A stretch of DNA of 32,035 nt from Pseudomonadota bacterium (GTDB taxonomy: Bacteria > Pseudomonadota > Alphaproteobacteria > Rhizobiales > Xanthobacteraceae): NCBI GenBank assembly GCA_021811945.1, contig JAKAPE010000005.1:10883-42917 (forward strand), written 5' to 3'. A program made the translations under genes and the position numbers. The number at the start of each line of letters is the position of its first letter. Position 1 is the stretch's first letter. Shown here in pieces: positions 16,891 to 32,035 of this stretch. The notes under the pieces are model-generated. The model worked only from the letters and a program-made list of their open reading frames with translations, was not told where the DNA came from and did no database searches.

Positions 16891-17898
16891 TCACTTGCGC
16901 GTGGAGGCTCGCCGCGTCCGCTTTTGGCCGCGCGTTGCGAATGCGCGGGGCTCACGAGAGCCTTGTGGTTGCGAAGCTTGTATGAATTCGATCAAACGAC
17001 GCTGCATTTCCGATAGCAGCTTGCCACGCCTGTGGACGAGGAATAATGGCACGCTTAGATTTAAACCCGGCGTCGAGATACAACGAAGCGCACCACGATC
17101 AAGATCAGCGCGTACGGCCGATTCCTCGATAAACGAGACGCCGGCGCCCATCGCGACCGCGCGCTTGATCGCCTCGGGATGACCCAATTCAATCCCGACA
17201 TCGCGATGAATGATGCCGTGGAGTTGCAGCAATTCATCTTCGAATTCGCGCCGCACCAGGCCTCTCGGGGCGCAGACGTAAGGAAGAGTCGATAGGGTCT
17301 TAACGTCGGCCATTGTGACAGTCGGCATAAAGTCGTTCGCTGCTACGAGGAGCAAGTGATCTTCCCATAATCCTTCGACAAGCAGATCGTCGAGCTCCTG
17401 CCTTGGATCAAGCGTGAGCATTCCGAAATCACAAACGCCGGTTCGTACCGCCTCTGTCGCACCCGGCGTACTGAATATTTTCGTGGTTATGCGGCTGTTG
17501 GGAAAGAGCGCGCGAAAGGCAACAACCAGATCGGTTAGCAAGTATGTACCGAACGTCATCGATCCGGCTATCACTGCTTGTCCAGCGGTGCCGTCCGTCA
17601 GTCCAGCAATCTCGCGACGCATCTCAAGGCTGCGCGTCAATATTTCCGTCGCCCAACGGTGAACACGTTCGCCGGCTTCGGTCAGGATGATGTTGCGCCC
17701 GTTCCTGGCGACGAGCTTGGTGTTGAGCTTCTCCTCGAGATCCCTCAAGTGCGCGGTTACCGCAGGCTGAGCGATTCCAAGGCTCTCTGCAGCGCGCGTC
17801 ACATTCGACAACTCTGCGACCCTGCAAAAAACGTCGAGCTTGAACAGGGTAATGTGCGGGCCGAATATTCGCTCGCGACGATTGGCGGAAAGGTGCAT
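16891..17898 (-). CDS. LysR-type transcriptional regulator
   Basis: This 335-residue LysR family regulator has a winged helix-turn-helix at about residues 16-76 (LDVFCRVAELSNVTRAAESLGIAQPAVTAHLRDLE split over its helices) and a periplasmic-binding-protein-like effector domain from about 100 to 310. The C-terminal 25 residues are Arg-rich and beyond the family core, ending beside the IS630 relic. The ATG at 17898 was chosen because the open frame to 17958 adds only unlikely sequence; the ribosome site is weak. It is divergent from the SDR-transporter-carboxylase unit, the usual arrangement for a LysR activator that responds to a pathway substrate or intermediate, so it is the probable regulator of that unit. 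Confidence 0.92.
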   Translation of the reverse strand: MHLSANRRERIFGPHITLFKLDVFCRVAELSNVTRAAESLGIAQPAVTAHLRDLEEKLNTKLVARNGRNIILTEAGERVHRWATEILTRSLEMRREIAGLTDGTAGQAVIAGSMTFGTYLLTDLVVAFRALFPNSRITTKIFSTPGATEAVRTGVCDFGMLTLDPRQELDDLLVEGLWEDHLLLVAANDFMPTVTMADVKTLSTLPYVCAPRGLVRREFEDELLQLHGIIHRDVGIELGHPEAIKRAVAMGAGVSFIEESAVRADLDRGALRCISTPGLNLSVPLFLVHRRGKLLSEMQRRLIEFIQASQPQGSREPRAFATRGQKRTRRASTRK

Positions 17899-17956
17899 TG
17901 ACCGAAACCTGCGCGGGTCGGCGCCGTCATTGGCGGCCAGCCGGGAAGACCACAAC

Positions 17957-17997
17957 AATAAGCAATTTATTATCGGTTCGCTACCAATTCATATTGG
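17957..17997. promoter_or_regulatory. Candidate LysR operator pair in the divergent spacer
   Basis: Two inverted repeats lie close together: AATAA-GCAAT-TTATT (17957-17971) and CCAAT-TCAT-ATTGG (17984-17997). They are 58-100 nt upstream of the LysR start, in the only A/T-rich stretch of the spacer. LysR-type regulators bind such partly symmetric, A/T-rich sites between divergent genes. The rest of the 416-nt spacer (17899-18314) shows no gene; it gives the SDR operon a leader of up to about 300 nt. Confidence 0.42.
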
Positions 17998-18314
17998 ATC
18001 GGCAGTTCCAACACCGATAGGGTTTTCATTCAACCAAGCGCGGCCAGTTCGCGCACTGCCGAAGGCGATGTGGGGGCGCGCGGTATAGCGAGAAACAGGG
18101 AGGAGCTTCATCACGCGGGCCGGCGCCCGCGGTAAGCCAAGGCATCGCGTGCCCATGCTGCAGCTCCAGCGCGAATCTAGTTGCAGGCCGGTCTTCGACT
18201 GGAGCGAACCTGCTGTGGCCAATGCGGAATGCCACTCAAAAGCGGGAGTCCGTAAGAGGCGCAAGGAGTCGGCATCGCTGTCAACGAGCTTCGCCGAAAT
18301 GGGAGATGATTGGA

Positions 18315-19070
18315 ATGACCCTGCGAGGCAAGGCTTTTGTCGTCACCGGCGGAGGACAAGGCATTGGACGCCGCACTGCTTTGACGCTCGCCAAACGGGG
18401 AGCGGCAGTTGTCGTCGTCGACGTCAACGGCGAGCGCGGTGGAAACGTCTGCCGTGAGATTACCGACGGTGGTGGGCGCGGCCTATATGTGGATGGCAAT
18501 GTTGCAGTAGCCGATGATTGCCGGCGCGCGGTTGCCCAAGCGGTGATGGCTTTTGGCGCTCTCCATGGCGTCGTCAACAACGCCTCGATCTTTTCCACGA
18601 TCAAGATGAAACCGTTCTGGGAAATTGACGATGCCGAGTGGGATGCGCTGATGGCGGTCAACCTCAAGGGAGTCTGGCAGATGGCCAAAGCGGCCCTGCC
18701 TGCTCTGCTCAAGGCGCCGACGGCAAGCGTCGTCAACATATCTTCGAGCACAATGTTGTTCGGCCGGCCCAACTACGCCCATTACGTCTCCTCTAAGGCC
18801 GGAGTCGTCGGGCTCAGCAGGGCCCTCGCACGCGAGCTCGGCGCCAAGAATATACGCGTAAACTCGATCTTGCCGGGCCCGATCTTCACCGAAATCCCGC
18901 GCGAGACGGTGACCGAGGAGCAGAAGCGAGTATTGATCGCAAATCAATGTCTGCACCGACCCGGAGCACCTGAAGACATCGCCAATATGGTCGCATTTCT
19001 GCTCAGCGACGACAGCAGTTTTATCACGGGCCAGTCATTCAATGTCGATGGCGGCTACGTCATGCATTGA
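18315..19070 (+). CDS. Short-chain dehydrogenase/reductase (SDR)
   Basis: This 251-residue classical SDR has the cofactor loop TGGGQGIG (11-18), an Asp at the end of the second strand (VVVVDVN, about residue 36) that favours NAD over NADP, NNAS (88-91), a catalytic serine in NISSS (about 141-145), and the Tyr157/Lys161 pair (YVSSK). The C-terminal ITGQSFNVDGGYVM block is the usual family ending. It likely oxidises a secondary alcohol to a ketone, or the reverse; the substrate is not readable from sequence. ATGs at 18306 and 18315 are in frame. I prefer 18315 because GGGAG (18301-18305) is then correctly spaced. It is first in the unit, 18 nt before the aldehyde dehydrogenase. Confidence 0.9.
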   Translation: MTLRGKAFVVTGGGQGIGRRTALTLAKRGAAVVVVDVNGERGGNVCREITDGGGRGLYVDGNVAVADDCRRAVAQAVMAFGALHGVVNNASIFSTIKMKPFWEIDDAEWDALMAVNLKGVWQMAKAALPALLKAPTASVVNISSSTMLFGRPNYAHYVSSKAGVVGLSRALARELGAKNIRVNSILPGPIFTEIPRETVTEEQKRVLIANQCLHRPGAPEDIANMVAFLLSDDSSFITGQSFNVDGGYVMH

Positions 19071-19088: not shown

Positions 19089-20603
19089 ATGGCTGCGATG
19101 GCGACAAAAGCCTGCCACATGTTGATCGGCGGCGAACTGGTCGAAAGCGAAAGCGGCGCCTGGGACGAGTCGCTTAACCCTGCCAATGAAGAAGTCATCG
19201 GCAGGACGCCAGCGGGTACCGCGGCCGATGTCGATAAGGCCGCGCGAGCCGCCGAACGGGCATGGCCGGCCTGGGCGGCCATGGGAGTGATCGGCCGTGC
19301 CGAGATCTTGCGCACGTTCGGTGCGCGCCTGCTGGAACGAGCCGACGAGCTGCTGAGTGTCGAGGTGATGGATACCGGCAACACGATCGGACCCATGCGC
19401 GGCGACGTTCGAATGGCTGTGGATAGTCTCAACTATTATGCAGGGCTCGGTTACGAGCTGAAGGGTCAGACCATTCCGTCAACACCCGGCAATCTGCACC
19501 TGACGGTTCGCGAACCCTACGGCATCGTCGTCCGAATTGTTCCATTCAACCATCCCGTGATGTTTGCAACCGCGCGCACGGCGGCCGCCCTGACGGCCGG
19601 CAACGCGGCGATCATCAAGCCCCCCGAGACCAGTCCGCTGTCGGCAATGGTTCTGGCGCAGATTGCGCGCGATGTTTTTCCGCCCGGCGTTTTCAATATC
19701 GTAACCGGCAGTGGCGCTACCGCCGGCGACGCCCTCGTGCGCCATCCGATGGTCAAGCGCATCGCCTTTATCGGTTCGACGGCCACCGGCCGCGCGATAC
19801 AGATGGCGGCTGCGGAGAGTGCGGTAAAACATGTGAGTCTGGAGCTGGGCGGGAAAAATCCGATGATCGTCTTTCCCGACGCGGATCCCGACGCGGTCGC
19901 AAAGGCCGCCGTGGCCGGAATGAATTTCAGTTGGCAAGGCCAGTCGTGCGGCTCGACCAGCCGGCTGCTGTTGCACGATTCACTCCATGACCAAGTTCTC
20001 GAGCGGGTGGTCGATCTCGTCTCGTCGCTCCGCGTCGGAGACCCATTGGACGAGGACAGCCAGATGGGGCCGATCAACTCCGCACGTCAATTGGCCAAGG
20101 TCGAACATTACGTCCGCATCGGCGAAGCCGAAGGCGCGCGTCTTCTCACCGGCGGCCGGCGGCCGCAGGGAAGCATGTTTGCACGCGGCTATTGGATTCG
20201 GCCCGCCGTATTTGGCGGCGTGACTTCGAACATGCGCATTGCCAAAGAGGAAATATTCGGCCCGGTCCTCTCCGTGCTGCGCTGGTCGACTGTCGATGAA
20301 GCGATCGCGATGGCCAATACGGTCGATTATGGACTGACGGCGGCGATCTGGACCAACGATATCGACACCGCATTCTCGACGGCGCGGCGCGTGCGCGCCG
20401 GGCACCAATGGATCAACGGCTATGGCGCCCATTACATGGCGGTCCCCTTCGGCGGTGTGAAGGCCAGCGGCATTGGCCGCGAGGAAGCGCTGGAGGAAAT
20501 GCTCGATTACACGGAGATCAAAACCATCAACGTGATCTTGAGAGGGCCGCGCGCAACCGGAGCCCGAGGCGAACCGAAAGCCGATCTGACAGGCAGCAGG
20601 TAG
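19089..20603 (+). CDS. NAD(P)-dependent aldehyde dehydrogenase
   Basis: This 504-residue member of the aldehyde dehydrogenase superfamily oxidises an aldehyde to its acid. The active-site set is complete: Cys287 in GQSCGS, Glu252 in LELGGKNP, Asn154 in VPFNHP and Lys177 in IIKPPE, with the EEIFGPVL block late in the protein. It resembles the betaine-aldehyde/aromatic-aldehyde type in length and motif spelling, but the substrate cannot be fixed. The ATG at 19089 is used; the next in-frame ATG is three codons later. It follows the SDR by 18 nt, so alcohol-to-acid oxidation by the pair is possible. The C-terminal 20 residues after KTINVIL are an unconserved Arg/Gly-rich tail. A 137-nt gap follows before the transporter genes. 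Confidence 0.95.
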   Translation: MAAMATKACHMLIGGELVESESGAWDESLNPANEEVIGRTPAGTAADVDKAARAAERAWPAWAAMGVIGRAEILRTFGARLLERADELLSVEVMDTGNTIGPMRGDVRMAVDSLNYYAGLGYELKGQTIPSTPGNLHLTVREPYGIVVRIVPFNHPVMFATARTAAALTAGNAAIIKPPETSPLSAMVLAQIARDVFPPGVFNIVTGSGATAGDALVRHPMVKRIAFIGSTATGRAIQMAAAESAVKHVSLELGGKNPMIVFPDADPDAVAKAAVAGMNFSWQGQSCGSTSRLLLHDSLHDQVLERVVDLVSSLRVGDPLDEDSQMGPINSARQLAKVEHYVRIGEAEGARLLTGGRRPQGSMFARGYWIRPAVFGGVTSNMRIAKEEIFGPVLSVLRWSTVDEAIAMANTVDYGLTAAIWTNDIDTAFSTARRVRAGHQWINGYGAHYMAVPFGGVKASGIGREEALEEMLDYTEIKTINVILRGPRATGARGEPKADLTGSR

Positions 20604-20740
20604 ACGGAAAATCCAAATCGAATGAGCCAGAAGGAGAATTCGCGTCGTTCGGCTACGGTTTTTCATGCATCTGGAGGGTCAACAACGCGAGTGCGGCTAC
20701 TGAGAGCACCAATGAGCTGCAACATCAACAGGAGGAAACA

Positions 20741-21733
20741 ATGACCAAGATACTGAGTTTCGTTCGATTGCTGGCCGCTGTGCTGGCCTTGCTGATGGTC
20801 GGTCAGATTTGCGAGGTCTCTGCTGCTCAGCAGAAGCGGGTCGCGCTGCTGGTGGGTCCGACGCAGGACCGCTTCATCGGCACCTGGGCCAAGACATATT
20901 CCGATGCGGCCGCGGCCAAAGGATTGGCGGTCACCGTATTTTCCAGCCCTTGGGATCCGGCCCTGCAGTCGCAACAGATCGACGAAGCAGTGGCACAAAA
21001 ATACGACGTGTTGGTGGTTCAAACGCTGAGCCAGAAAGCCGTCATCCCCGCGCTGATACGCGCAAAAAACGCACATATTCCCGTCATCACGGTCATCGCC
21101 CAGTTTCCCAAGAATGAGGCGCAGAGCCTGTACGTAACCTATGTCGGCGAAGACTCCAGGACGCTTGGGCGGCTCGCTGGTGAGGCGCTGGGGCAGGCCC
21201 TCGCCAAGGCCGGCCGCCCCAACGCTAAGGTTGCCGCGCTGGTCGGCACCCTCTCCGAGGGAACCGGCTCGCTGCGTCTCGAAGGCTTTAAAGCTGCCGT
21301 CGCCAAATACCCAGGGCTCAAGATTGTCGTTATCCAGGACGTGCAGTGGAATCCGACCAAAGCCGAACAGGCATTCGGGCAAATTCTCGCGCGCTTTGGC
21401 GGCACGCAAGGGCTGGATGCCGTTTACGGGATGAACGATACAGTCGCCAACGGAGCCGTCCAGGCTGCCGAGTCGGCGGGCGTGAAGCTAGGTCTCGCGA
21501 AGGGTTCCTTAGTCGTGGTCGGCGGCAATTGCATGGATCCGGGCGTCAAGAACATCGAGAGCGGCAAGCAGGCGGCGACCGTGCTCATGCTGCCGCAAGT
21601 GTCGGCGAAGAACGCCGCCGACGCGACGGTCGAAGTCCTCGCCGGCAAGCAGGTCCCGCGGGCGATCTACGAGAAGCACCAAATCATCACCAAGCAGAAC
21701 GTGGCGGAGTTCGCCAAGCGGTGCTCATATTGA
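20741..21733 (+). CDS. RbsB-like periplasmic substrate-binding protein of an ABC importer
   Basis: The 330-residue product begins with a Sec signal peptide (basic MTK, hydrophobic core about 8-24, probable cleavage after VSA at 28) and continues as a type I periplasmic binding protein of the sugar-binding Peripla_BP_4 group: KRVALLVGPTQDRF at the mature N-terminus, then YDVLVVQTLS, IPVITVIA and a DAVYGMNDTVANGAVQA hinge region. Such proteins capture sugars, polyols or autoinducer-like solutes and deliver them to the membrane complex. A perfect AGGAGG (20730-20735) precedes the ATG, the strongest ribosome site in the unit, consistent with the higher expression binding proteins need. Seven bases separate it from the ATPase gene. 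Confidence 0.92.
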   Translation: MTKILSFVRLLAAVLALLMVGQICEVSAAQQKRVALLVGPTQDRFIGTWAKTYSDAAAAKGLAVTVFSSPWDPALQSQQIDEAVAQKYDVLVVQTLSQKAVIPALIRAKNAHIPVITVIAQFPKNEAQSLYVTYVGEDSRTLGRLAGEALGQALAKAGRPNAKVAALVGTLSEGTGSLRLEGFKAAVAKYPGLKIVVIQDVQWNPTKAEQAFGQILARFGGTQGLDAVYGMNDTVANGAVQAAESAGVKLGLAKGSLVVVGGNCMDPGVKNIESGKQAATVLMLPQVSAKNAADATVEVLAGKQVPRAIYEKHQIITKQNVAEFAKRCSY

Positions 21734-21740
21734 AGCCGCG

Positions 21741-23336
21741 GTGAGTGAAGTCGTGACCTCGGCGGGCCTGGCCATGCACGCCGTGCCGGAAAATCAACGG
21801 ACGGAGAGCGCGGCTTGCGCCGGGCTCTCAGCCTCCTTTTTCCCTGGCAGTCCGATTCTTTCGGTGCGCGACTTGTCCAAGAGTTTCGGAGCGGTCAATG
21901 CGCTTAAGCATTTGAACGCGGATTTCTACTCCGGAGAGATCCAGGCCATTTGCGGTGAGAACGGTGCCGGCAAAAGTACGCTGGTCAAGATACTCGCCGG
22001 CGTCGATCGGCCCGATACGGGGACGACCTGTTTTGACGGCAAGGTTTGCACGCTGTCCTCATCAAAGGAAGCGCAGCGCCTTGGCATTGCCATGGTGGCG
22101 CAGGAGCTGAGCGTCTGCCCTGACCTATCGGTGTTGGACAACATTTGGCTCGGTTCGATGGACGTTCCATTCCTCCCGCGGCGCAAGGATCTACGCCGCC
22201 GCGCCGCCGAAGCGCTTAGCCTGCTCGGCGCGGAGCATATTGCTCTGAATGCGACGGTCGGACAGTTGACGATCGGGGAGCGTCAGCTTGTTGAAATTGC
22301 GCGCATGCTGACGAGAAATGCGCGCGTTTTCATACTTGACGAGCCCACCGCCACGCTATCGGACAACGAGATCGACAGGATCTTCGTGGCGCTTGCACGC
22401 ATCAAACGCCAAGGACGCTCGGTCATCTACATTACGCACCGTCTGGCCGAGGTGTTCAGGATCTGTGACTCGGTCACTGTATTGCGCAATGGCGAGATGG
22501 TAGGGGTGTCGAGGACAGCCGATATCGATCGCAAGAAATTGATAGAAATGATGCTGGGGCGTCCATTCATCGAGATGTATCCCGAGCACGGCTACACAGA
22601 AGGAGAGCCCATTCTTCGGATTGATGGACTTTGCGTTCCCGGCGCCGTCAGGGATTTCAGCGCCGTCGTTCCGCGAGGTGACATTGTGTGCATCGCCGGA
22701 CAGGTCGGTTCGGGAGCGGAAAGTGTGGTCAGGACAGTTGCCGGCTTGGTCTACAACGCGACTGGATCGGTGCGCGTGAACGGCAATCCGATGCGACTCG
22801 GCTCGGCGGAAGAAGCCTGCCAGCACAATATCCACTTCGTTTCCGGCGACAGGGCCGAGGAAGGCATTTTTAGCAGTCTCAGCGTCACCGATAACCTGGT
22901 CGCCACCCGGCTTCGCGCGTTGTCCCGATTTGGCTTTCTCAATCCGAAATCGCTGCAGGCAGAGGCGCTCAGATTGGCGGGGTGGGCTGGCGTCGATCAG
23001 CGGCGATTGCGGGCGCGGGCCGATGATCTGAGCGGGGGCAATCAGCAGAAGCTGGCGTTCGGCCGCTGTTTGGGCGGAACGCAGGCCGGCGTGCTCGTCT
23101 TGATCGAGCCGACGCGGGGCATCGATATCGGAGCGCGCGCCGAAATCTATCAGCTGATGCGCGGACTATGCGCCGAGGGCTACGGCTTGCTCGTGGCATC
23201 GACCGACCTGGAGGAAGTGATCGGCCTGGCGGACGCCATCATCACTATGTATCGCTCTCGGCAAGTGGGCAGCTACCGCGGCAAGGCGATCAACATGCAG
23301 GATATCATGGCCGACATCACCCATCCGCTCAAATAG
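21741..23336 (+). CDS. Tandem-domain sugar-type ABC transporter ATPase (RbsA/MglA-like)
   Basis: This 531-residue protein has two ABC domains in one chain, as in RbsA, MglA and AraG. Domain 1 is complete: Walker A GENGAGKST (72-80), a signature written LTIGERQ rather than LSGGQ, and Walker B FILDEPTATLSD. Domain 2 has the degenerate Walker A usual for the group (GQVGSGAES), an intact signature LSGGNQQK, and VLVLIEPTRGID, in which the Walker B Asp is Ile although the Glu is kept. One productive ATP site is therefore expected. The start is GTG 21741 without a clear ribosome site, probably by coupling to the binding-protein gene; ATG 21774 is the alternative. The N-terminal 38 residues are an extra segment. 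Confidence 0.93.
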   Translation: MSEVVTSAGLAMHAVPENQRTESAACAGLSASFFPGSPILSVRDLSKSFGAVNALKHLNADFYSGEIQAICGENGAGKSTLVKILAGVDRPDTGTTCFDGKVCTLSSSKEAQRLGIAMVAQELSVCPDLSVLDNIWLGSMDVPFLPRRKDLRRRAAEALSLLGAEHIALNATVGQLTIGERQLVEIARMLTRNARVFILDEPTATLSDNEIDRIFVALARIKRQGRSVIYITHRLAEVFRICDSVTVLRNGEMVGVSRTADIDRKKLIEMMLGRPFIEMYPEHGYTEGEPILRIDGLCVPGAVRDFSAVVPRGDIVCIAGQVGSGAESVVRTVAGLVYNATGSVRVNGNPMRLGSAEEACQHNIHFVSGDRAEEGIFSSLSVTDNLVATRLRALSRFGFLNPKSLQAEALRLAGWAGVDQRRLRARADDLSGGNQQKLAFGRCLGGTQAGVLVLIEPTRGIDIGARAEIYQLMRGLCAEGYGLLVASTDLEEVIGLADAIITMYRSRQVGSYRGKAINMQDIMADITHPLK

Positions 23337-23350
23337 GGACAGTCTTGCTG

Positions 23351-24325
23351 ATGAACTCCATCGGGGGACAGGCGTCCGAACAACCGGCGAGTGTGGTTTC
23401 GCGGCTTTGGTCGATCCGCCTTGACAAAGCCTCGTTAATTCAAGGCATCGCCGCGGTCGCTGTGGTGATATTTGCCGTTTCCACGCCCGGGTTTCTTTCT
23501 GCGACGAGCATTCGCTCGTTGCTGACGACGGTATCCTTCGTCGGTTGCGTCGCGGTCGGCATGACGTTCATCACGTTGAGCGGCAACATCATGTCGTTCA
23601 GCATCGGGGCGTCGATGTCGGCGACAACTATCGTGTTCATGGTAAGCGTCGTGCTGGGACTCGTCCCGGCCCTGATTCTTGCTTTTTTGTTCTGTGCCGC
23701 CCTTAACGGCATTCAGGGCTGGTTGATCGGCGTTTTCCGGGCAAATCCGCTTATCATCAGCATGGCCGCGTATTCGATGATTATCGGCAGCGCGATCTAC
23801 ATCACCGGCGGACGCGGTGTCTACCCGCTGACTAACAAGGCCAATATCCTGACGGCCAATATTGGGCCCCTCCCCGGACCGCTGGCCGCGTTCCTGTTCG
23901 TCGCGATCGTCGGTCAATTGATCCTTTCCTTCACGCGCTTCGGCCGGAACATTTATCTCGTGGGAGCCAATCCGCGTGCGGCCAAGGCTTCAGGTCTAGA
24001 GCCGTGGCGCACCGTCTTGTGGGCATATGTGGCGGCTGGTTTGTGTACAGCCGTCTCCGCCGTGCTGGTCGCAGCCCGTTACCGCTCGGGCGACATGGAG
24101 CACGGCATCGGTTACGAATATCACGCCATCAGTGCCGTCCTCGTCGGAGGGACTGCAATCCAGGGCGGCGCGGGATCGGTGATCCGCACTTTAGTCGGCA
24201 CTGTCTTCATCGCGTTGATGCAAGGACTGCTGATCCTGCGTGGCTTTGGAATCGAGATGCAGTATTTGCTGATCGGATTGATCGTCCTGGCCGCCGTCAT
24301 GCTGCAGTGGAAGGGCCGGACATGA
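23351..24325 (+). CDS. ABC transporter permease 1 (RbsC/BPD_transp_2 type)
   Basis: This 324-residue inner-membrane permease of the branched-chain/ribose family has about nine hydrophobic segments. It shows family marks GMTFITLSGNIMSFSIGASMS (about 74-94), the conserved transmembrane start characteristic of sugar permeases, and the cytoplasmic coupling region TRFGRNIYLVGANPRAAKASGL (about 197-218) that contacts the ATPase. It starts at ATG 23351, 14 nt after the ATPase stop, and its own stop overlaps the start of the second permease (ATGA). Two different permeases in one operon suggest a heterodimeric channel, as in the Lsr or Ytf/Yjf systems rather than the RbsC homodimer. Confidence 0.92.
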   Translation: MNSIGGQASEQPASVVSRLWSIRLDKASLIQGIAAVAVVIFAVSTPGFLSATSIRSLLTTVSFVGCVAVGMTFITLSGNIMSFSIGASMSATTIVFMVSVVLGLVPALILAFLFCAALNGIQGWLIGVFRANPLIISMAAYSMIIGSAIYITGGRGVYPLTNKANILTANIGPLPGPLAAFLFVAIVGQLILSFTRFGRNIYLVGANPRAAKASGLEPWRTVLWAYVAAGLCTAVSAVLVAARYRSGDMEHGIGYEYHAISAVLVGGTAIQGGAGSVIRTLVGTVFIALMQGLLILRGFGIEMQYLLIGLIVLAAVMLQWKGRT

Positions 24326-25362
24326 CTGGATATTTGCGCGCGTTCTTCGCAAACCGTACCGCTCGACCCTTCGCGGTACTCGTGCTGATCGTGATCGTTC
24401 TCGGTATCGGCGATGACGGTCATGGCCGCGTCCTGACCACGAGCACCGCCTATGATGTCTTGCAACAATTCGCCACCATCGGTCCCGTCGCGCTCGCGCT
24501 CGGCCTGTCGATGATGGTGGGAGAGTTCGACCTATCGGTGGGCGGCATCCTCAGTCTCGCGGGCTGCGTCGCGGTGATGGCAGGCTCGGGTAGTCCGGCG
24601 GCGGGATTGCTGCTCGCGGTGACCGTGGGTGCGCTCGGCGGGCTCTTGCAAGGCACGATCATGACATGGCTCAATCTGAGCTCGATCGGCGTGACGCTTG
24701 GCGGCTTGCTCACTTTCGGCGGGCTTTCGTATTTCCTGACCGGAAATACCACGATCGGCTATGATCGATTGGACGTGGCGTTGGGCGTCAACGCGCCGCT
24801 TCTGGGGATTTTCTCGGCACGTTCCCTGACCGCAATCATTCTCTTCCTGGTCGCAACCTTCGTTGTGTCCTGGACGCGTTTTGGCCGCGATCTCCTCGCA
24901 GTCGGCAGCGACCGTCGCGCCGCGACCATTGTAGGCATCCGAGTGGATAGGATCCTCATTGCGGTGTTCGTCATTTCGGGCTTGCTCACCGCGATCGGAG
25001 GCGGGCTGCTGAGTTACGGCTTGGCGGCGGCCTCGCCGACCGCGCTGGCCGATACGCTGGTCCCAGGTGCTGCAGCCGCCATTCTTGGCGGCGTATCGCT
25101 CTCGGGCGGAAAAGGCCGGCCCATCGGCATCGCCGGCGGCGTGCTTGTTCTTTCGATGTTGCATTCCGGCTTGACGGCTATCGGCGTGCCGCCGTTTGCG
25201 CACTGGATCGTGACCGCTGCGGTTCTGTTCACGGTGGGGATTCTCGACGGCGAGGAACTGAGTCGTCGCGTCTATTCGTTCCGCCGCGCGGTCGGTCAAC
25301 GCCCGGACACTCCTCCTCCCAGCGCCTCTTCAATTCTTGTCCGACAGCAGGCCGATCATTAG
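24322..25362 (+). CDS. ABC transporter permease 2 (RbsC/BPD_transp_2 type)
   Basis: The second permease (346 residues) is a paralogue of the first with low but clear similarity: GLSMMVGEFDLSVGGILSLAG (about 62-82) is the textbook signature of ribose-type permeases, and TRFGRDLLAVGSDRRAATIVGI (about 188-209) is the ATPase-coupling stretch. About nine hydrophobic segments are visible. The C-terminal 35 residues are hydrophilic with Pro/Ser. Translation is coupled to the preceding permease by a 4-nt overlap, and the HyuA-like gene follows after 23 nt, tying uptake to the carboxylase in one transcript. Confidence 0.93.
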   Translation: MTGYLRAFFANRTARPFAVLVLIVIVLGIGDDGHGRVLTTSTAYDVLQQFATIGPVALALGLSMMVGEFDLSVGGILSLAGCVAVMAGSGSPAAGLLLAVTVGALGGLLQGTIMTWLNLSSIGVTLGGLLTFGGLSYFLTGNTTIGYDRLDVALGVNAPLLGIFSARSLTAIILFLVATFVVSWTRFGRDLLAVGSDRRAATIVGIRVDRILIAVFVISGLLTAIGGGLLSYGLAAASPTALADTLVPGAAAAILGGVSLSGGKGRPIGIAGGVLVLSMLHSGLTAIGVPPFAHWIVTAAVLFTVGILDGEELSRRVYSFRRAVGQRPDTPPPSASSILVRQQADH

Positions 25363-25385: not shown

Positions 25386-27488
25386 ATGCCTTACGTCATC
25401 GGAGTCGATACAGGCGGCACGTTTACCGACGGCTTTGTCGCTGATCATTTGGGACGCATCGCTTCGGCAAAATCGCCGTCGACGCCGCCGGAGTTCGCCG
25501 TCGGAGCTCTCAACGTCATCGATGAGTTGGCAAAGTCGCTCGGCGTGACGACGAGGAACTTTTTGCACGATACAAGCTATATCGTGCACGGGACCACCTC
25601 GACGCTGAACGCGTTGGTCACCGGCGATGTTTGCAAGGTGGGTTTCCTGACCACCAAGGGCCACGCCGACTCCATTTCGATCATGAACGCGGAGGGGCGT
25701 TACGCCGGCCTCGATCCCGATCAGATTCAGAACATGTCGCGCACCAACAAGCCGCCACCGCTGGTGCCGAGGGCCTTGGTAGCTGAAATCAACGAGCGCA
25801 TCGACTACAAGGGAGCGGAGATCGTGCGCCTCGACGAAAACGAAGTGCGGGCCGCGACTCGGCACCTCATGTCGCAAGGAGTGGAAGCGATTGCGGTGTC
25901 CTTCCTTTGGTCGTTTCGTAATCCGACGCACGAACTGCGAGCACGGGAGATCATCGCCGAGGAATCTCCGTCGATCTACATTGCGTTGTCGAGCGAAATC
26001 AGCCCTCGCATCCGCGAGTTCGCGCGCAGCGCGACGACCATTGTCAACACGCAGATCGCGCCTCGATTGCGCGGCTATCTTATTCCGTTGGAGAACGAGC
26101 TGCGCAATCGCGGGTTTGAAGGTGCGCTGTTGGTGATGCAAGGCTCCGGCGGCTGCGTTAAGGCCCGGGAAGCGCCGCGTCACGCCGTGTCCACACTGGG
26201 GTCGGTGCTGACCGGCGGCATCGTCGGCTGCACCAATCTGGGCGTTGCCCTCGGACACAAGAACATCATCTCAACCGATATGGGCGGCACCACCTTTCTG
26301 GTGGGGCTGGTCGTCGATGGCAAGCCGGTAAGTTCCACCAGCACGGTGATCAATCAATATACGATTTCGACCTCGATGGTCGATGTCCACACGATCGGCG
26401 CCGGCGGCGGAGCCATTGCCTGGATCGATCAAGGCGGCAATTTGCGGGTCGGGCCGAAAAGCGCCGGCGCTCGTCCGGGTCCCGCCTGCTACGGGGCGGG
26501 CGGCGGGCAACCGACGGTGACCGACGCCGACCTGGCGCTTGGCATCATCAACCCGGATAATTTCCTCGGCGGTCGGATGAAGCTGTCGGTCGAACTCGCG
26601 CGCGACGCGTTAGAACGCCATGTTGCTCGACCGCTGGGTATGAAGGTCGACGACGCGGCGGCTGCGGTCTATGCGATCCAGAACGCGCAAACGGCCGACC
26701 TCGTACGCAAGGTCGTCGTCAACAGCGGACGCGATCCGCGCGATTTCGTAGTCTTTTCGTTCGGCGGCGCTGGACCCGTTCATTGCGCCAATTATGCCGC
26801 GGATTTAGGGGCATCCGGGGTCGTCGTTCCACTCGGCGCGACGGCAGCCGTGTTCTCCGCCTACGGCCTAGCGAGTTCCGACATCGTTCTGACCGTCGAG
26901 CGATCCCAGCCTGACAATTTTCCGCCAGAGCCTGCACGGGTCAAGCAGGCCTTTGCCAAGCTCGACGAGGAGCTCAAGGCTCAACTGCAGGAGCAGGCGC
27001 TTCCATTTGCGAGCGTCGCATTTGAGCGGGAGGTCGACATGCGCTTTACCATGCAGTTGGCTGAAGTCACGACGCCGGTGGCGCCGGGTCCGATCGACAA
27101 GGATGCCGTCGCAAATGTTGGGAAAACGTTTGAGGCGGCTTACGCGAGCCTTTACGGCAAGGACGCGGGCTTTCGCGACGCCGGCATGCAGATAATCACC
27201 TACCGGATGCGCGCCCGTGCGCGTCTGCCGATTCATCCGGAACTACCGCACTTCGAGCATGGCGATAGGCGGGTAAAACCGAAAAACATGCGCCGGGCTT
27301 TTCTCGATGTCCGACGCGGCTGGCAGGACACGGCGGTCTATGACTATCGCGACCTCGGTCGTGACGATCGGCTCGTTGGTCCGGCGGTAGTGGAAACGCC
27401 GACCACAACGGTGGCCTTGCCCGAAGGTTGCACCGCCACGCTCGATCAACTCGGCAATATGGTTATCCGTTATGCGGATGCGATTTAG
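25386..27488 (+). CDS. HyuA-like ATP-binding subunit (acetone carboxylase beta / hydantoinase A family)
   Basis: This 700-residue member of the HyuA/oxoprolinase family has the N-terminal ASKHA-type phosphate loop GVDTGGTFTD (5-14), a HGTTSTLNAL block (about 75-84) and the second phosphate loop STDMGGTTF (about 298-306), followed by the GAGGGAIAW and GARPGPACYGAGGGQPTVTDA stretches typical of the family. These subunits use ATP to activate a carbonyl as an enol or acyl phosphate: ketones in acetone and acetophenone carboxylases, cyclic amides in hydantoinases and 5-oxoprolinase. AGGAG lies 9 nt before the ATG. With a HyuB-like and a four-Cys small subunit directly downstream, the carboxylase reading is favoured. 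The transporter genes upstream suggest the substrate, or its precursor, is imported. Confidence 0.9.
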   Translation: MPYVIGVDTGGTFTDGFVADHLGRIASAKSPSTPPEFAVGALNVIDELAKSLGVTTRNFLHDTSYIVHGTTSTLNALVTGDVCKVGFLTTKGHADSISIMNAEGRYAGLDPDQIQNMSRTNKPPPLVPRALVAEINERIDYKGAEIVRLDENEVRAATRHLMSQGVEAIAVSFLWSFRNPTHELRAREIIAEESPSIYIALSSEISPRIREFARSATTIVNTQIAPRLRGYLIPLENELRNRGFEGALLVMQGSGGCVKAREAPRHAVSTLGSVLTGGIVGCTNLGVALGHKNIISTDMGGTTFLVGLVVDGKPVSSTSTVINQYTISTSMVDVHTIGAGGGAIAWIDQGGNLRVGPKSAGARPGPACYGAGGGQPTVTDADLALGIINPDNFLGGRMKLSVELARDALERHVARPLGMKVDDAAAAVYAIQNAQTADLVRKVVVNSGRDPRDFVVFSFGGAGPVHCANYAADLGASGVVVPLGATAAVFSAYGLASSDIVLTVERSQPDNFPPEPARVKQAFAKLDEELKAQLQEQALPFASVAFEREVDMRFTMQLAEVTTPVAPGPIDKDAVANVGKTFEAAYASLYGKDAGFRDAGMQIITYRMRARARLPIHPELPHFEHGDRRVKPKNMRRAFLDVRRGWQDTAVYDYRDLGRDDRLVGPAVVETPTTTVALPEGCTATLDQLGNMVIRYADAI

Positions 27489-27502: not shown

Positions 27503-29479
27503 ATGCCGCTCATTCACGTTGCTGGTTCTGAGAAATTCGTATTCGAGGAACGTGCGAGCGACGAACTGTGCGCGATTGCATCGAAGTTCGTCCCCCTGCA
27601 TACGGTCGATGCCGCCGCCGAGCTCGCCATCGATCCCTTGACCTATGAAGTCATCCGCCACCGTTTGTCGGCGATTACCGACGATATGGGCGATGCGTTG
27701 AAGCGTATGTCGGGGTCCGTGGTGGTCACGGACTGCAATGACTTCAATGCCGCTATCGCCGATGAGGCTGGCGATCTCATCCTGGTGGGGCAATACAATA
27801 TGCAACTCGCCGCCTCGCTGGACATGGCGATCAAGTGGACGCTCGAGCATCGCAGTGAAAATCCCGGCCTGCGCCCTGGCGACATGTTCTTCTGCAACGA
27901 TCCGTGGATCGGCGGCGGGCTGCACCAGAATGACGCCAGCGTGTTCGCTCCGCTGTTCTATGACGGGGAGCTGTTCGCCTGGAGCGGCGCCGTTTGTCAT
28001 CAGGTCGATCTTGGCGGCGTATCGCCGGGAAGCTGGTCCGTTGCCGGCACCGATGTTTTCTGGGAGTCGACGCCGGTGCCGCCGGTGAAAATCGTCGAAA
28101 ACGGCACTCTGCGGCCGGATATCGAAGACATGTATCTACGGCGTTCGCGCGTGCCGAAGCTCATCGCGCTTGATCTGCGCGCCAAATTGGGCGCCAACAA
28201 TGTGGCCCAGCAACGCTTGACGCAGCTCATCGACAAATACGGCCCGCGCGTCGTCAAGGCCGTCATGAAAAAGATGATGCACGACGCCGAGCATCGGCTG
28301 CGCAGCAAGCTGCGGAGCCTGCCGGACGGTACGTGGGGTGCCGTCGCCCACCAGGACGGCGCGCGGGCCGGCGACAGCAACATCTACAAGATTGTGCTGC
28401 AAATGACCAAGCACGGCGACAAGCTGACCTTCGACTTCACCGGCACCGACGCGCAGGTGGAGGGTTTCGTCAATTGCACCTTCGCCGGCGTTCGCGGCGG
28501 CATCATGCCGATCATATTGACGATGCTGTGCAACGACATTCCCTGGGCGCCCGGCGGCATCTATCGCTGCGTGGAAATCATCAGCGAGCGCGGCACGATC
28601 AACAACTGCACCTTCCCGGCCGGCATCGGCAAAGCCTCCGTCGCCTCCGCCTGGGCGACGCAGAACGCCGTTTCGGAATGCGTAGCGCAGATGGTGGGAA
28701 CGCACCCACAGCACCGAAAGGCGGCGATGTCCTGTTGCCAAGGCACCTGGGATCTGGCGCTGCTGGCCGGGGTGGACCAGCGCGGCGCACCCTTCGTGAC
28801 CATGCTGTGCGACCCGATGGCCGGCGGTCTCGGCGCCCGGGTCGATCAAGACGGCGTCGACACCGGCGGACAAATGCCCATTCCGATGGGTCGCATCGCC
28901 GACGTGGAGATCAATGAGTTCAGTTTTCCGATGCTTTACTTGTGGCGGCGGGAAGAAATGGATTCCGGGGGTCCCGGGCGTTACCGCGGCGGTCTGGGCG
29001 GATCGAGTTGTTTTGTTCCGCACGATTCGCCCTTGCACGGCGTGCATCTCGTCGTCTCGGCGCCCGGCAAGGCTTTGCCGTTGGCGCCGGGGCTCGCTGG
29101 CGGCTACCCCTCGGCCACGAGCTACGACGTGCTCATGCGCGGCACCAATGTGCAACAGATGCTGGCGCAGGGCTTCATCCCCGGCGATCTCGACGAGATC
29201 GACGGTCGGCATGAGGTTCTTCCGTCGCATGTCGAGACCAATATGGCCGCCAACGATGTCTATTTTACGCACTGGCAGGGTGGCGGCGGCTATGGCGATC
29301 CGCTGCGGCGCGATCCGCACGAGGTCGCCTTGGACGTGGCGTCATTCAGGGTATCGCCGCGCGCTGCTTCGGACGTTTATGGTGTGATGCTCAAAACAGA
29401 CGGGACGCCGGACGCGGGCGCCACCGAAGCGCGCCGTCGTGATTTGCGACGCGATCGTATTGGCGCAGGCGCCGCGTGA
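27503..29479 (+). CDS. HyuB-like subunit (acetone carboxylase alpha / hydantoinase B family)
   Basis: This 658-residue hydantoinase B/oxoprolinase-type subunit is the partner of the HyuA-like protein. Family marks are DPLTYEVIRHRL (about 44-55), GDMFFCNDPWIGGGLHQNDASVF (about 126-148, the likely metal-site region), DFTGTDAQVEGFVN (about 312-325) and the C-terminal GGGGYGDPLRRDP. In acetone carboxylase the corresponding alpha subunit carries the manganese site where the activated ketone is carboxylated. The protein is shorter than acetone carboxylase alpha (about 775 residues) and closer to hydantoinase B. A perfect AGGAGG (27490-27495) precedes the ATG at 27503, 14 nt after the hyuA-like stop. 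Confidence 0.9.
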   Translation: MPLIHVAGSEKFVFEERASDELCAIASKFVPLHTVDAAAELAIDPLTYEVIRHRLSAITDDMGDALKRMSGSVVVTDCNDFNAAIADEAGDLILVGQYNMQLAASLDMAIKWTLEHRSENPGLRPGDMFFCNDPWIGGGLHQNDASVFAPLFYDGELFAWSGAVCHQVDLGGVSPGSWSVAGTDVFWESTPVPPVKIVENGTLRPDIEDMYLRRSRVPKLIALDLRAKLGANNVAQQRLTQLIDKYGPRVVKAVMKKMMHDAEHRLRSKLRSLPDGTWGAVAHQDGARAGDSNIYKIVLQMTKHGDKLTFDFTGTDAQVEGFVNCTFAGVRGGIMPIILTMLCNDIPWAPGGIYRCVEIISERGTINNCTFPAGIGKASVASAWATQNAVSECVAQMVGTHPQHRKAAMSCCQGTWDLALLAGVDQRGAPFVTMLCDPMAGGLGARVDQDGVDTGGQMPIPMGRIADVEINEFSFPMLYLWRREEMDSGGPGRYRGGLGGSSCFVPHDSPLHGVHLVVSAPGKALPLAPGLAGGYPSATSYDVLMRGTNVQQMLAQGFIPGDLDEIDGRHEVLPSHVETNMAANDVYFTHWQGGGGYGDPLRRDPHEVALDVASFRVSPRAASDVYGVMLKTDGTPDAGATEARRRDLRRDRIGAGAA

Positions 29480-29492
29480 CGAAGGGGACATC

Positions 29493-29786
29493 ATGATTCA
29501 TCTCGACGACAATCTCATGCTCACCGACGACGGCGCCGTCATGTGCGCGCACTGCCAAACGCGCCTTGGCGAGAATAGTCATGAGCCCTTGGCCCATGCC
29601 GTAAGGCGCGAGCGCCCTTCGCGCGACGCCGGTCCGGGGGTGCATGCCGACCCGAAGACCTTCACCACACGCGAGATCGTTCTGCGGCAACTCTTCTGCC
29701 CGGGCTGCAGCACGGTGCTTGCGACGGAAATCGTGCCGCGCGATGAGCCGTCGTTTCGCCACTGGAGCCTTGGTGCCAAGGCCTGA
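29493..29786 (+). CDS. Small four-cysteine subunit resembling acetone carboxylase gamma
   Basis: This 97-residue protein has two CxxC pairs, Cys18/Cys21 (VMCAHC) and Cys69/Cys72 (LFCPGC), that could hold a zinc ion. The second block, VLRQLFCPGCSTVLATEI, is spelled like the C-terminal metal-binding part of the acetone carboxylase gamma subunit (about 168 residues) and of the small acetophenone carboxylase subunit; the N-terminal helical part of AcxC is missing. The start at ATG 29493 has GAAGGGGA upstream and lies 13 nt after the HyuB-like stop, so it is the third subunit of the same complex. Its presence is the main argument for a carboxylase rather than a hydantoinase. Confidence 0.8.
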   Translation: MIHLDDNLMLTDDGAVMCAHCQTRLGENSHEPLAHAVRRERPSRDAGPGVHADPKTFTTREIVLRQLFCPGCSTVLATEIVPRDEPSFRHWSLGAKA

Positions 29787-30891: not shown

Positions 30892-31563
30892 TCAGCCTGC
30901 TGCATTTCGCGCCTCTTGCCTGAGCATATCGGCGACCTTGTAGCTTGCTTCGGTCTTGGCCTTGATCTCGTCGAGCGTCACGTCGGGAGCGAGCTCGATC
31001 AAGATCATGCCGCCGCCTTTCTTGTCGATGGTAAAGACGCCAAGGTCGGTAATCACCATATCGACAACGCCGGCGCCGGTGAGCGGCAGCATGCAGTGGT
31101 GCAGGAGCTTGGGCTCATCCTTGGCCGAGTGTTCCATGACCACGACGACTTTCTTGACGCCGCCGACGAGATCCATGGCGCCACCCATGCCCTTGACCAT
31201 TTTTCCCGGAATCATCCAGTTGGCGAGATCGCCGTTCTCGGCCACTTGCATGGCGCCGAGGATCGCGAGATCGATGTGACCGCCGCGGATCATGGCGAAG
31301 GAATCCGCCGAGTTGAAATAGCTGGTGGTCGGCAGTTCGGTGACAGTCTGCTTGCCGGCATTGATGAGATCGGCGTCTTCCTCGCCCTCGAACGGGAACG
31401 GGCCGGTGCCGAGCATGCCGTTTTCCGACTGCAGCTGCACGCTCATTCCCTCCGGAATGAAGTTTGAGACCAGCGTCGGGATGCCGATGCCGAGATTGAC
31501 GTAAAAGCCGTCTCGCAGCTCCTTGGCGGCGCGCGCCGCCATTTGTTCGCGCGTCCAGGGCAT
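30892..31563 (-). CDS. scoB: 3-oxoacid CoA-transferase subunit B
   Basis: This is the beta subunit of a two-subunit family I CoA-transferase of the succinyl-CoA:3-ketoacid type, which moves CoA from succinyl-CoA to acetoacetate or a related 3-oxoacid. The 223-residue protein has the catalytic SENG motif with Glu47, the preceding [11 protein letters not shown], and the GGAMDLVGG stretch (about 125-133). Length is usual for ScoB/AtoA. The ATG at 31563 overlaps the stop of subunit A (ATGA). In context, acetoacetate-like products of the nearby carboxylase would be natural substrates, but the two loci are on opposite strands and separated by decayed DNA. Confidence 0.95.
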
Positions 31564-32035
31564 CAGACTTCTCCCCCTGTTCCCGCGGGCGCGTCAGCCG
31601 TCTGGCGTTTGCGCACCGTGCGCTGTTCGATGTGCTTGGTCGCATTCGCCACGTGGACAATGCGTTGGACATAGATGCCAGGCGTGACGATGTGATCGGG
31701 ATTGATGTCGCCCGGCTGAACCAGATGCTCGACCTCGGCCACCGTCACTTTGCCGGCGGTGGCCATCACCGGATTGAAATTGCGCGCCGTCTTCCGATAG
31801 GCGAGATTGCCTTCGGTATCGCCCATAAAGGCGTGAACGATCGACAGGTCGGCGACAAGGCCGCGTTCCATCACATAGCGCTCGCCATCGAACTGGCGCT
31901 CGTCCTTGCCCTCGGCGATCGTGGTGCCGACGCCGGTCCTGGTGAAGAAGGCCGGAATGCCGGCGCCGCCGGCGCGGATACGCTCGGCGAGCGTGCCCTG
32001 CGGGTTGAATTCGATCTCCAGTTCGCCGAGATCGG
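31563..32035 (-). CDS. scoA: 3-oxoacid CoA-transferase subunit A (partial, N-terminus beyond window)
   Basis: The visible 157 codons are the C-terminal two thirds of subunit A of the CoA-transferase. Reading inward from the right edge there is an [18 protein letters not shown] stretch, then [50 protein letters not shown] and [11 protein letters not shown], all standard for ScoA/AtoD. The start lies past base 32035, which truncates the gene by the window and not by mutation. The last 20 residues are a poorly conserved Arg/Gln/Ala tail, and the stop overlaps the scoB start. Confidence 0.93.

Follow-up and report, generated by a model that had tools for sequence, protein, structure and literature searches.

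The window, that is, the whole stretch of 32,035 nucleotides analysed here, extends to the end of its contig (C365) in a genome of 4.55 Mb and 399 contigs. It encodes a HyuA-like and a HyuB-like protein followed by a very small protein that is most likely a third subunit, downstream of two dehydrogenase genes and an ABC transporter (Table 1).

Table 1. Genes of the window surrounding the 97-residue protein, in order of position.
Feature	Coordinates	Strand	Remarks
LysR-family regulator	16891..17958	-	divergent, upstream
Short-chain dehydrogenase/reductase	18222..19070	+	
Aldehyde dehydrogenase	19089..20603	+	
Periplasmic binding protein (Peripla_BP_4)	20408..21733	+	listed ORF, true start probably later
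ABC transporter ATPase, sugar-type (RbsA/AraG-like)	21741..23336	+	
ABC transporter permease (BPD_transp_2)	23168..24325	+	start uncertain
ABC transporter permease (BPD_transp_2)	24004..25362	+	listed ORF, true start probably later; 23 bases upstream of alpha
HyuA-like (alpha), 700 aa, ASKHA ATPase	25386..27488	+	PF01968, PF05378, PF19278
HyuB-like (beta), 658 aa	27503..29479	+	ATG 27503; PF02538, 418.6 bits
Short gamma subunit (most likely), 97 aa	29493..29786	+	predicted zinc-site core, four cysteines, Acetone_carb_G / Apc-gamma fold
3-oxoacid CoA-transferase subunit B (pcaJ/scoB family)	30892..31563	-	TIGR02428, 318 bits, above cut-off
3-oxoacid CoA-transferase subunit A	31563..32033	-	truncated by contig end; TIGR02429, 177 bits, above cut-off

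The gene for the 97-residue protein, whose extent and length the earlier note had given correctly, starts with an ATG at 29493, stops at 29784-29786, and has conserved relatives; a ribosome-binding-like GAAGGGG lies five bases 5' of the ATG. The plus-strand gaps from the last permease through alpha and beta to gamma are 23, 14, and 13 bases, the last separating the beta stop from the gamma start. G+C by codon position is similar in gamma (0.66/0.50/0.77) and beta (0.65/0.47/0.77) and, since it favours the plus-strand frame, short antisense or out-of-frame ORFs across the gene (for example 29391-29762 on the minus strand) were rejected. Relatives are encoded at 23 loci of other genomes, and the alignment of 24 gamma domains has 16 invariant columns that include all four cysteines of the protein (residues 18, 21, 69, and 72, its only ones, forming two CxxC pairs), a degree of conservation that rules out a chance ORF.

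As a single sequence the protein scores 18.2 bits with PF08882 (Acetone_carb_G), under the 21-bit gathering cut-off, with residues 4-87 placed on positions 11-97 of the 113 in the profile; fused relatives pass the cut-off (for example with 48.2 bits). Its best phmmer match among solved structures is 5l9w_C (E 0.11), the acetophenone carboxylase gamma subunit ApcB, a protein of 129 residues deposited under the name 'beta subunit'. No match to the ApcB model (cut-off 250 bits) is listed for the protein alone, and the scores of L101 (35.2), L091 (25.5), and a true acetone carboxylase gamma (31.5) with that model are weak. A profile search, as proposed in the earlier note, supports membership in the gamma family: profile A1, made from 24 gamma sequences (the window protein and 23 relatives), matches 5l9w_C at E 2.6e-6, and the acetone carboxylase gamma is not among its matches to solved structures up to E 10. 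The predicted structure (mean pLDDT 85.2) also has 5l9w_C as its best match (Foldseek E 1.0e-3; Z 7.8 over 87 residues at 3.3 Å), in a tie with three acetone carboxylase gamma entries at Z 7.0-7.3 and with the next family at Z 3.8, it being noted that values below 8, such as these of 7-8, can on their own reflect a common arrangement. With the profile, the fold, and the four-cysteine site of the Apc and Acx gamma subunits all present, the 97-residue protein is most likely a genuine gamma subunit of the acetone/acetophenone carboxylase-related family. The neighbouring families in the fold search, Mis18/yippee and cereblon domains (Z about 3-4), were taken to reflect nothing beyond a general yippee-like fold. 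Weak zinc-ribbon matches of the sequence and the Pfam score under the cut-off are what would speak for an unrelated zinc ribbon of other function that merely lies inside the operon, a reading that we regard as extremely improbable in view of the A1 match to ApcB and the Z of 7.0-7.8 to ApcB and AcxC versus 3.8, and that is practically refuted by the fusion of the core to HyuB at 21 of the 23 loci.

The predicted fold aligns to residues 7-102 of the Apc gamma and 54-151 of the Acx gamma, and the protein thus represents the core common to both. The N-terminal region of the usual gamma is missing, as the earlier note had stated, the first ~53 residues of AcxC being skipped, and so are the C-terminal tails. 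The accompanying claim that it keeps both CxxC pairs holds for the protein itself, which has two, but fails as a likeness to acetone carboxylase, whose gamma is described in a passage of PMC5543143 as having CxC plus CxxC (Cys74, 76, 124, and 127); it is the acetophenone type that matches, with Cys22, 25, 75, and 78 in the corresponding passage of PMC5214803.

In the HyuA-like subunit the motifs DTGGTFT (8), DMGGT (298), and GARPGP (361) are intact, and its best solved match is ApcC (5l9w_B, 376 bits), followed by CapA at 367. Among NCBIfam models the caprolactamase model (519.5 bits) scores above ApcC (399.9), all of these scores being far below the equivalog cut-offs. The metal tetrad of the HyuB-like subunit (D80, H141, D144, and H166) is invariant in 25 of 25 aligned sequences, and its best solved match is ApcD (5l9w_A, 212 bits); as the earlier note had observed, it is shorter than the metal subunit (alpha) of the solved acetone carboxylase (658 vs 776 residues). 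The ApcC and ApcD equivalog cut-offs (1500 bits each) lie well above the scores obtained (399.9 and 250.8 bits), and what the two subunits do carry are the HyuA ATP motifs and the HyuB D/E-H-D-H site of the broad hydantoinase/ketone carboxylase family. Among the window ORFs scanned there is a single HyuA-like gene and no second ATPase (alpha').

Scanning GTDB genomes yielded the 23 loci that encode relatives of the protein. At 21 of 23 actinomycete loci (L003-L023) the HyuB protein ends in the gamma core as a C-terminal domain, and Nocardia (L002) has, like the window, a separate gamma gene, with identities of 66% for HyuA and 69% for HyuB. The Goodfellowiella locus L024 lacks a HyuA or HyuB match among its ORFs and contains a gamma remnant (L024:9830-10174), apparently a decayed fusion gene. 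Actinomadura madurae carries, apart from its fused gamma, a second divergent gamma-like ORF (L006:16202-16762, minus strand) without the first cysteine pair. When the window's own genome and its relatives were searched (n=151), two had a match, the own genome and G021 (fused), and in a class sample of 385 genomes, the own one counted, 18 match profile A1 and 25 match PF08882. Within the own genome, A1 finds the window gamma only and PF08882 finds only a second gamma fragment (L001, G000:C8:82-174), which is above the cut-off and truncated by the contig end; a whole-genome search also gave 16 matches to the window HyuB on 12 contigs.

Twenty further regions were fetched, 19 from places in the A1 and PF08882 class lists and one from G021. 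Fusions account for seven: the window-type profile shows them in L081-L086, and PF08882 together with a broader profile shows one in L100, whose short fused gamma has a CxC first pair. Another seven (L089-L094, L096) are arrangements of alpha, beta, and a free short gamma. L095 and L099 are in Apc gene order, and L099 also has a long gamma of 174 residues. L097 and L098 are acetone carboxylases whose gamma frames span 172 and 205 residues, and L088 is a fragment. In the remaining region, L087, a partial beta comes first, then a long gamma (193-residue frame) and then alpha, an order unlike those described. A motif scan did not find a CxC-type motif in two long gammas, that of L106 and the second of L099. 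In the former, a 167-residue acetone carboxylase gamma from a Rhodovulum plasmid (L106:5735-6238), SHAGHEFC and CPLSG replace the two cysteine pairs and, with most of the zinc cysteines missing, zinc is perhaps dispensable. Against 72,556 plasmid records the 97-residue protein had a sole match, on a haloarchaeal plasmid with the free gamma arrangement.

The repeated fusion of beta and gamma provides independent evidence of a partnership between gamma and HyuB. According to the passage on the Apc structure in PMC5214803, gamma 'partly envelops' beta, whose C-terminal arm embraces it, and the position of the fusion point agrees with that arrangement. The predicted fold of one natural fusion (L017, 774 residues; mean pLDDT 74.8, pTM 0.81) has a beta part that matches 5l9w_A with Z 25.6 over residues 6-661.

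Trees were built from the window and 31 chosen loci, leaving out the solved-structure sequences, with reference labels assigned by gene order and gamma length. Matches of <400 residues (such as the incomplete alpha of L083 and beta of L087) were dropped, and four of the 21 fused actinomycete loci (L003, L007, L014, and L017) were used as rows so as to keep down the number of near-identical ones; two rows for Apc alpha' were present in the quick alpha tree and omitted from the careful one. In the beta tree (33 rows) the window and Nocardia pair at 100/100 within 7-row and 13-row short-gamma clades (100/99 each), a second clade (97/95) unites the acetone with the acetophenone carboxylases, and a third (100/100) consists of five Hyd rows. 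The trees contain long branches. An AU test on beta rejected the grouping of the window clade with the acetone carboxylases (p 0.0143) and with the acetophenone carboxylases (p 0.00249), these p-values being weakened because the naming of the groups followed the inspection of a first tree. The suggestion in the earlier note that the system lies between acetone and acetophenone carboxylases is contradicted by these rejections and by the alpha tree, in which the window clade is again separate (8 rows, 95/95). The backbone of the alpha tree is not well supported, and the short-gamma rows join Hyd at 74/83 only. The fused L081, L082, and L084 fall with the window on beta, in the 13-row clade, and outside the 8-row window clade on alpha. 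At least three changes between free and fused gamma are required on the beta tree. As judged from these sequences, the window system belongs to a separate lineage of alpha, beta, and short gamma that is often fused.

The same beta tree bears on the question of whether the window protein is a reduced form of AcxC, as the earlier note had supposed. The five rows with a long gamma form a single clade, so that the N-terminal extension needs only one change, the direction of which depends on where the root lies, and the window protein is accordingly the core and not evidently a reduction; a gamma without this extension has, moreover, been published for the acetophenone type. An acetone carboxylase gamma that had degenerated by losing its N-terminal helical region would have the gene order of acxABC, as the window does, and would retain the fold shared with AcxC 54-151. 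The presence of the same core in 23 aligned relatives shows that this is not decay, however, and the reading is further disfavoured by the first cysteine pair (CxxC and not CxC), by the single long-gamma clade, and by the AU test against grouping with the long-gamma beta clade (p 0.014), and we consider it very unlikely. The cysteine argument is not a clean one, given that L100, with a short fused gamma, has CxC and that the motif scan showed no such pair in the long gamma of L106 or in the second gamma of L099, also a long one.

We propose that the 97-residue protein, with nothing beyond the zinc-site core, would act as a structural gamma subunit and join the HyuA-like and HyuB-like proteins in an alpha-beta-gamma complex. 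It most likely binds one zinc through C18, C21, C69, and C72, and would be clasped by the arm at the C-terminus of the HyuB-like subunit, where the relatives fuse gamma covalently. In acetone carboxylase the C-terminal helix of gamma makes a small contact to the ATPase subunit, as a passage of PMC5543143 describes, and without the extra N- and C-terminal parts the window gamma should not reach that subunit. By analogy with the solved relatives, the ATPase subunit would use ATP to phosphorylate the carbonyl (enol) of the substrate, and the activated intermediate would then move on to the HyuB-like subunit, at whose D-H-D-H metal site biotin-free carboxylation with bicarbonate most likely yields a 3-oxo acid. 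The substrate may be a ketone formed by the operon dehydrogenases from an imported compound, and the 3-oxo acid could then be activated by the 3-oxoacid CoA-transferase. This transferase is a possible pathway partner, on the opposite strand; its genes are about 1.1 kb away, which counts against the link, and such genes occur at two of the 25 loci compared, near the window system and near L003. A CoA ligase and a thiolase lie near L007 and a thiolase near L101, and a route from ketone through 3-oxo acid and CoA ester to thiolysis would fit the genes at L007.

The gene clusters of the 25 loci, each named from one representative, include a PRK06126-type ring hydroxylase (19 loci), an HsaC/BphC-like extradiol dioxygenase (14), and an HsaD/BphD-like hydrolase (16), the last pooling alpha/beta hydrolases. 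The Nocardia neighbours include gentisate dioxygenase-like, FAA-hydrolase-family, mycothiol maleylpyruvate isomerase-domain, and 3-hydroxybenzoate hydroxylase-like genes, and L007 and L101 have salicylyl-CoA 5-hydroxylase-like flavoproteins with thiolase, most of these aromatic-catabolism assignments being below equivalog cut-offs. The aromatic genes seen near the relatives are absent from the window operon.

Any assignment of the reaction must weigh ketone carboxylation against ATP-dependent hydrolysis of a cyclic amide. Weidenweber et al. (2017) distinguished carboxylases from hydrolases of this family by the presence or absence of gamma, and gave beta lengths of ca. 720 residues for acetone carboxylase, about 50 fewer for Apc, and about 150 fewer for Hyd (PMC5214803). 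The link of gamma with carboxylation, a beta subunit of 658 residues, and the nearby CoA-transferase favour ketone carboxylation, and we give even chances, from sequence comparison, to the window system being a biotin-free, ATP-dependent ketone carboxylase with a core-only structural gamma. Somewhat less probable, in our estimate, is a cyclic amidohydrolase of the lactamase or hydantoinase type that has a gamma subunit, in which case gamma would be no mark of carboxylation. The window alpha is nearer to CapA than to ApcC by NCBIfam, the alpha-tree backbone leaves Hyd among the short-gamma groups with no clear placement, and ring hydroxylase and dioxygenase neighbours are also compatible with a lactam such as oxindole. 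In the other short-gamma lineage, an isochorismatase-family hydrolase gene directly follows gamma at six loci (L089-L094) and lies one ORF further in the seventh (L096), which suggests amide hydrolysis with a gamma subunit there. The two of these genes that were tested match the RutB and biuret hydrolase models weakly, and three of the seven loci have genes that we take to be of the xanthine dehydrogenase type. Among the 25 loci compared, six have an isochorismatase-family gene, all actinomycete. Against a hydrolase in the window stand the published Hyd enzymes, which have no gamma and the shorter beta, the 100/100 split of gamma-bearing from Hyd rows in the beta tree, the lack of a gamma beside the Hyd pair at the loci of the five Hyd rows, and the lack of an amidohydrolase family among the window ORFs scanned. 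We tentatively entertain, with less than even confidence, the view that the short-gamma systems comprise one carboxylase-like group, in aromatic catabolism, and one amidohydrolase-like group, with gamma serving as a general clamp on the metal subunit and not as the mark of a carboxylase. The short-gamma finding calls into question the published rule that the hydrolases of the family are without gamma.

A gamma without the N-terminal extension is already known from Apc. Our literature search covered titles, abstract starts, and passages, with few subscription journals, and within that coverage we found no paper on a fused or core-only gamma and no description of a separate core-only-gamma lineage in acx gene order that is repeatedly fused to HyuB. 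The role of gamma in acetone carboxylase is described as unclear in the passage of PMC5543143 that deals with it. The core-only gamma and its natural fusions display the minimal piece and its attachment site, so that deletion in a small system could test what gamma does. In an actinobacterial microcompartment, too, HyuB and HyuA lie near a ring-opening enzyme, with a role described as unclear in a passage of PMC10470539. The acetovanillone carboxylase HpeCBA was considered as a relative and dropped, as it is a biotin enzyme by the account in a passage of PMC9618137.

Among known systems, the core complex of Apc from Aromatoleum aromaticum provides the best solved match for all three window subunits, and its gamma shares with the window gamma the CxxC plus CxxC arrangement and the absence of an N-terminal extension. 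Apc differs from the window system by an additional ATPase (alpha') and by an epsilon subunit, its genes run alpha', gamma, alpha, beta, and ApcB has a C-terminal tail that the window gamma lacks. Acetone carboxylase (5svb, 5svc, and 5m45) and the window have in common a set of three genes that begins with the single ATPase and continues with the metal subunit and gamma, and the Acx gamma core is as close in fold as ApcB. AcxC has, however, CxC as its first pair and ca. 50 extra N-terminal residues, as reported by Weidenweber et al. (2017) for acetone carboxylase gammas relative to the acetophenone type (PMC5214803), whereas the window gamma has CxxC and 17 residues before its first cysteine. 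CapAB (6yra) and other Hyd enzymes (hydantoinases and oxoprolinases) have homologous ATPase and metal subunits with the same motifs, and CapA is the best NCBIfam match of the window alpha, but these enzymes have no gamma and a shorter beta. The haloarchaeon Natronosalvus halobius carries on a plasmid (NGM15_RS17070-17080) alpha, beta, and a free 93-residue gamma in the same order as in the window, next to a salicylyl-CoA 5-hydroxylase-like flavoprotein, a thiolase, and acyl-CoA dehydrogenases; the annotation of its gamma as 'acetone carboxylase subunit gamma' illustrates why caution is needed before every cluster of HyuA, HyuB, and gamma is named an acetone carboxylase. The window system itself combines the gene order of acetone carboxylase with gamma and beta lengths that are nearer to those of the acetophenone type.
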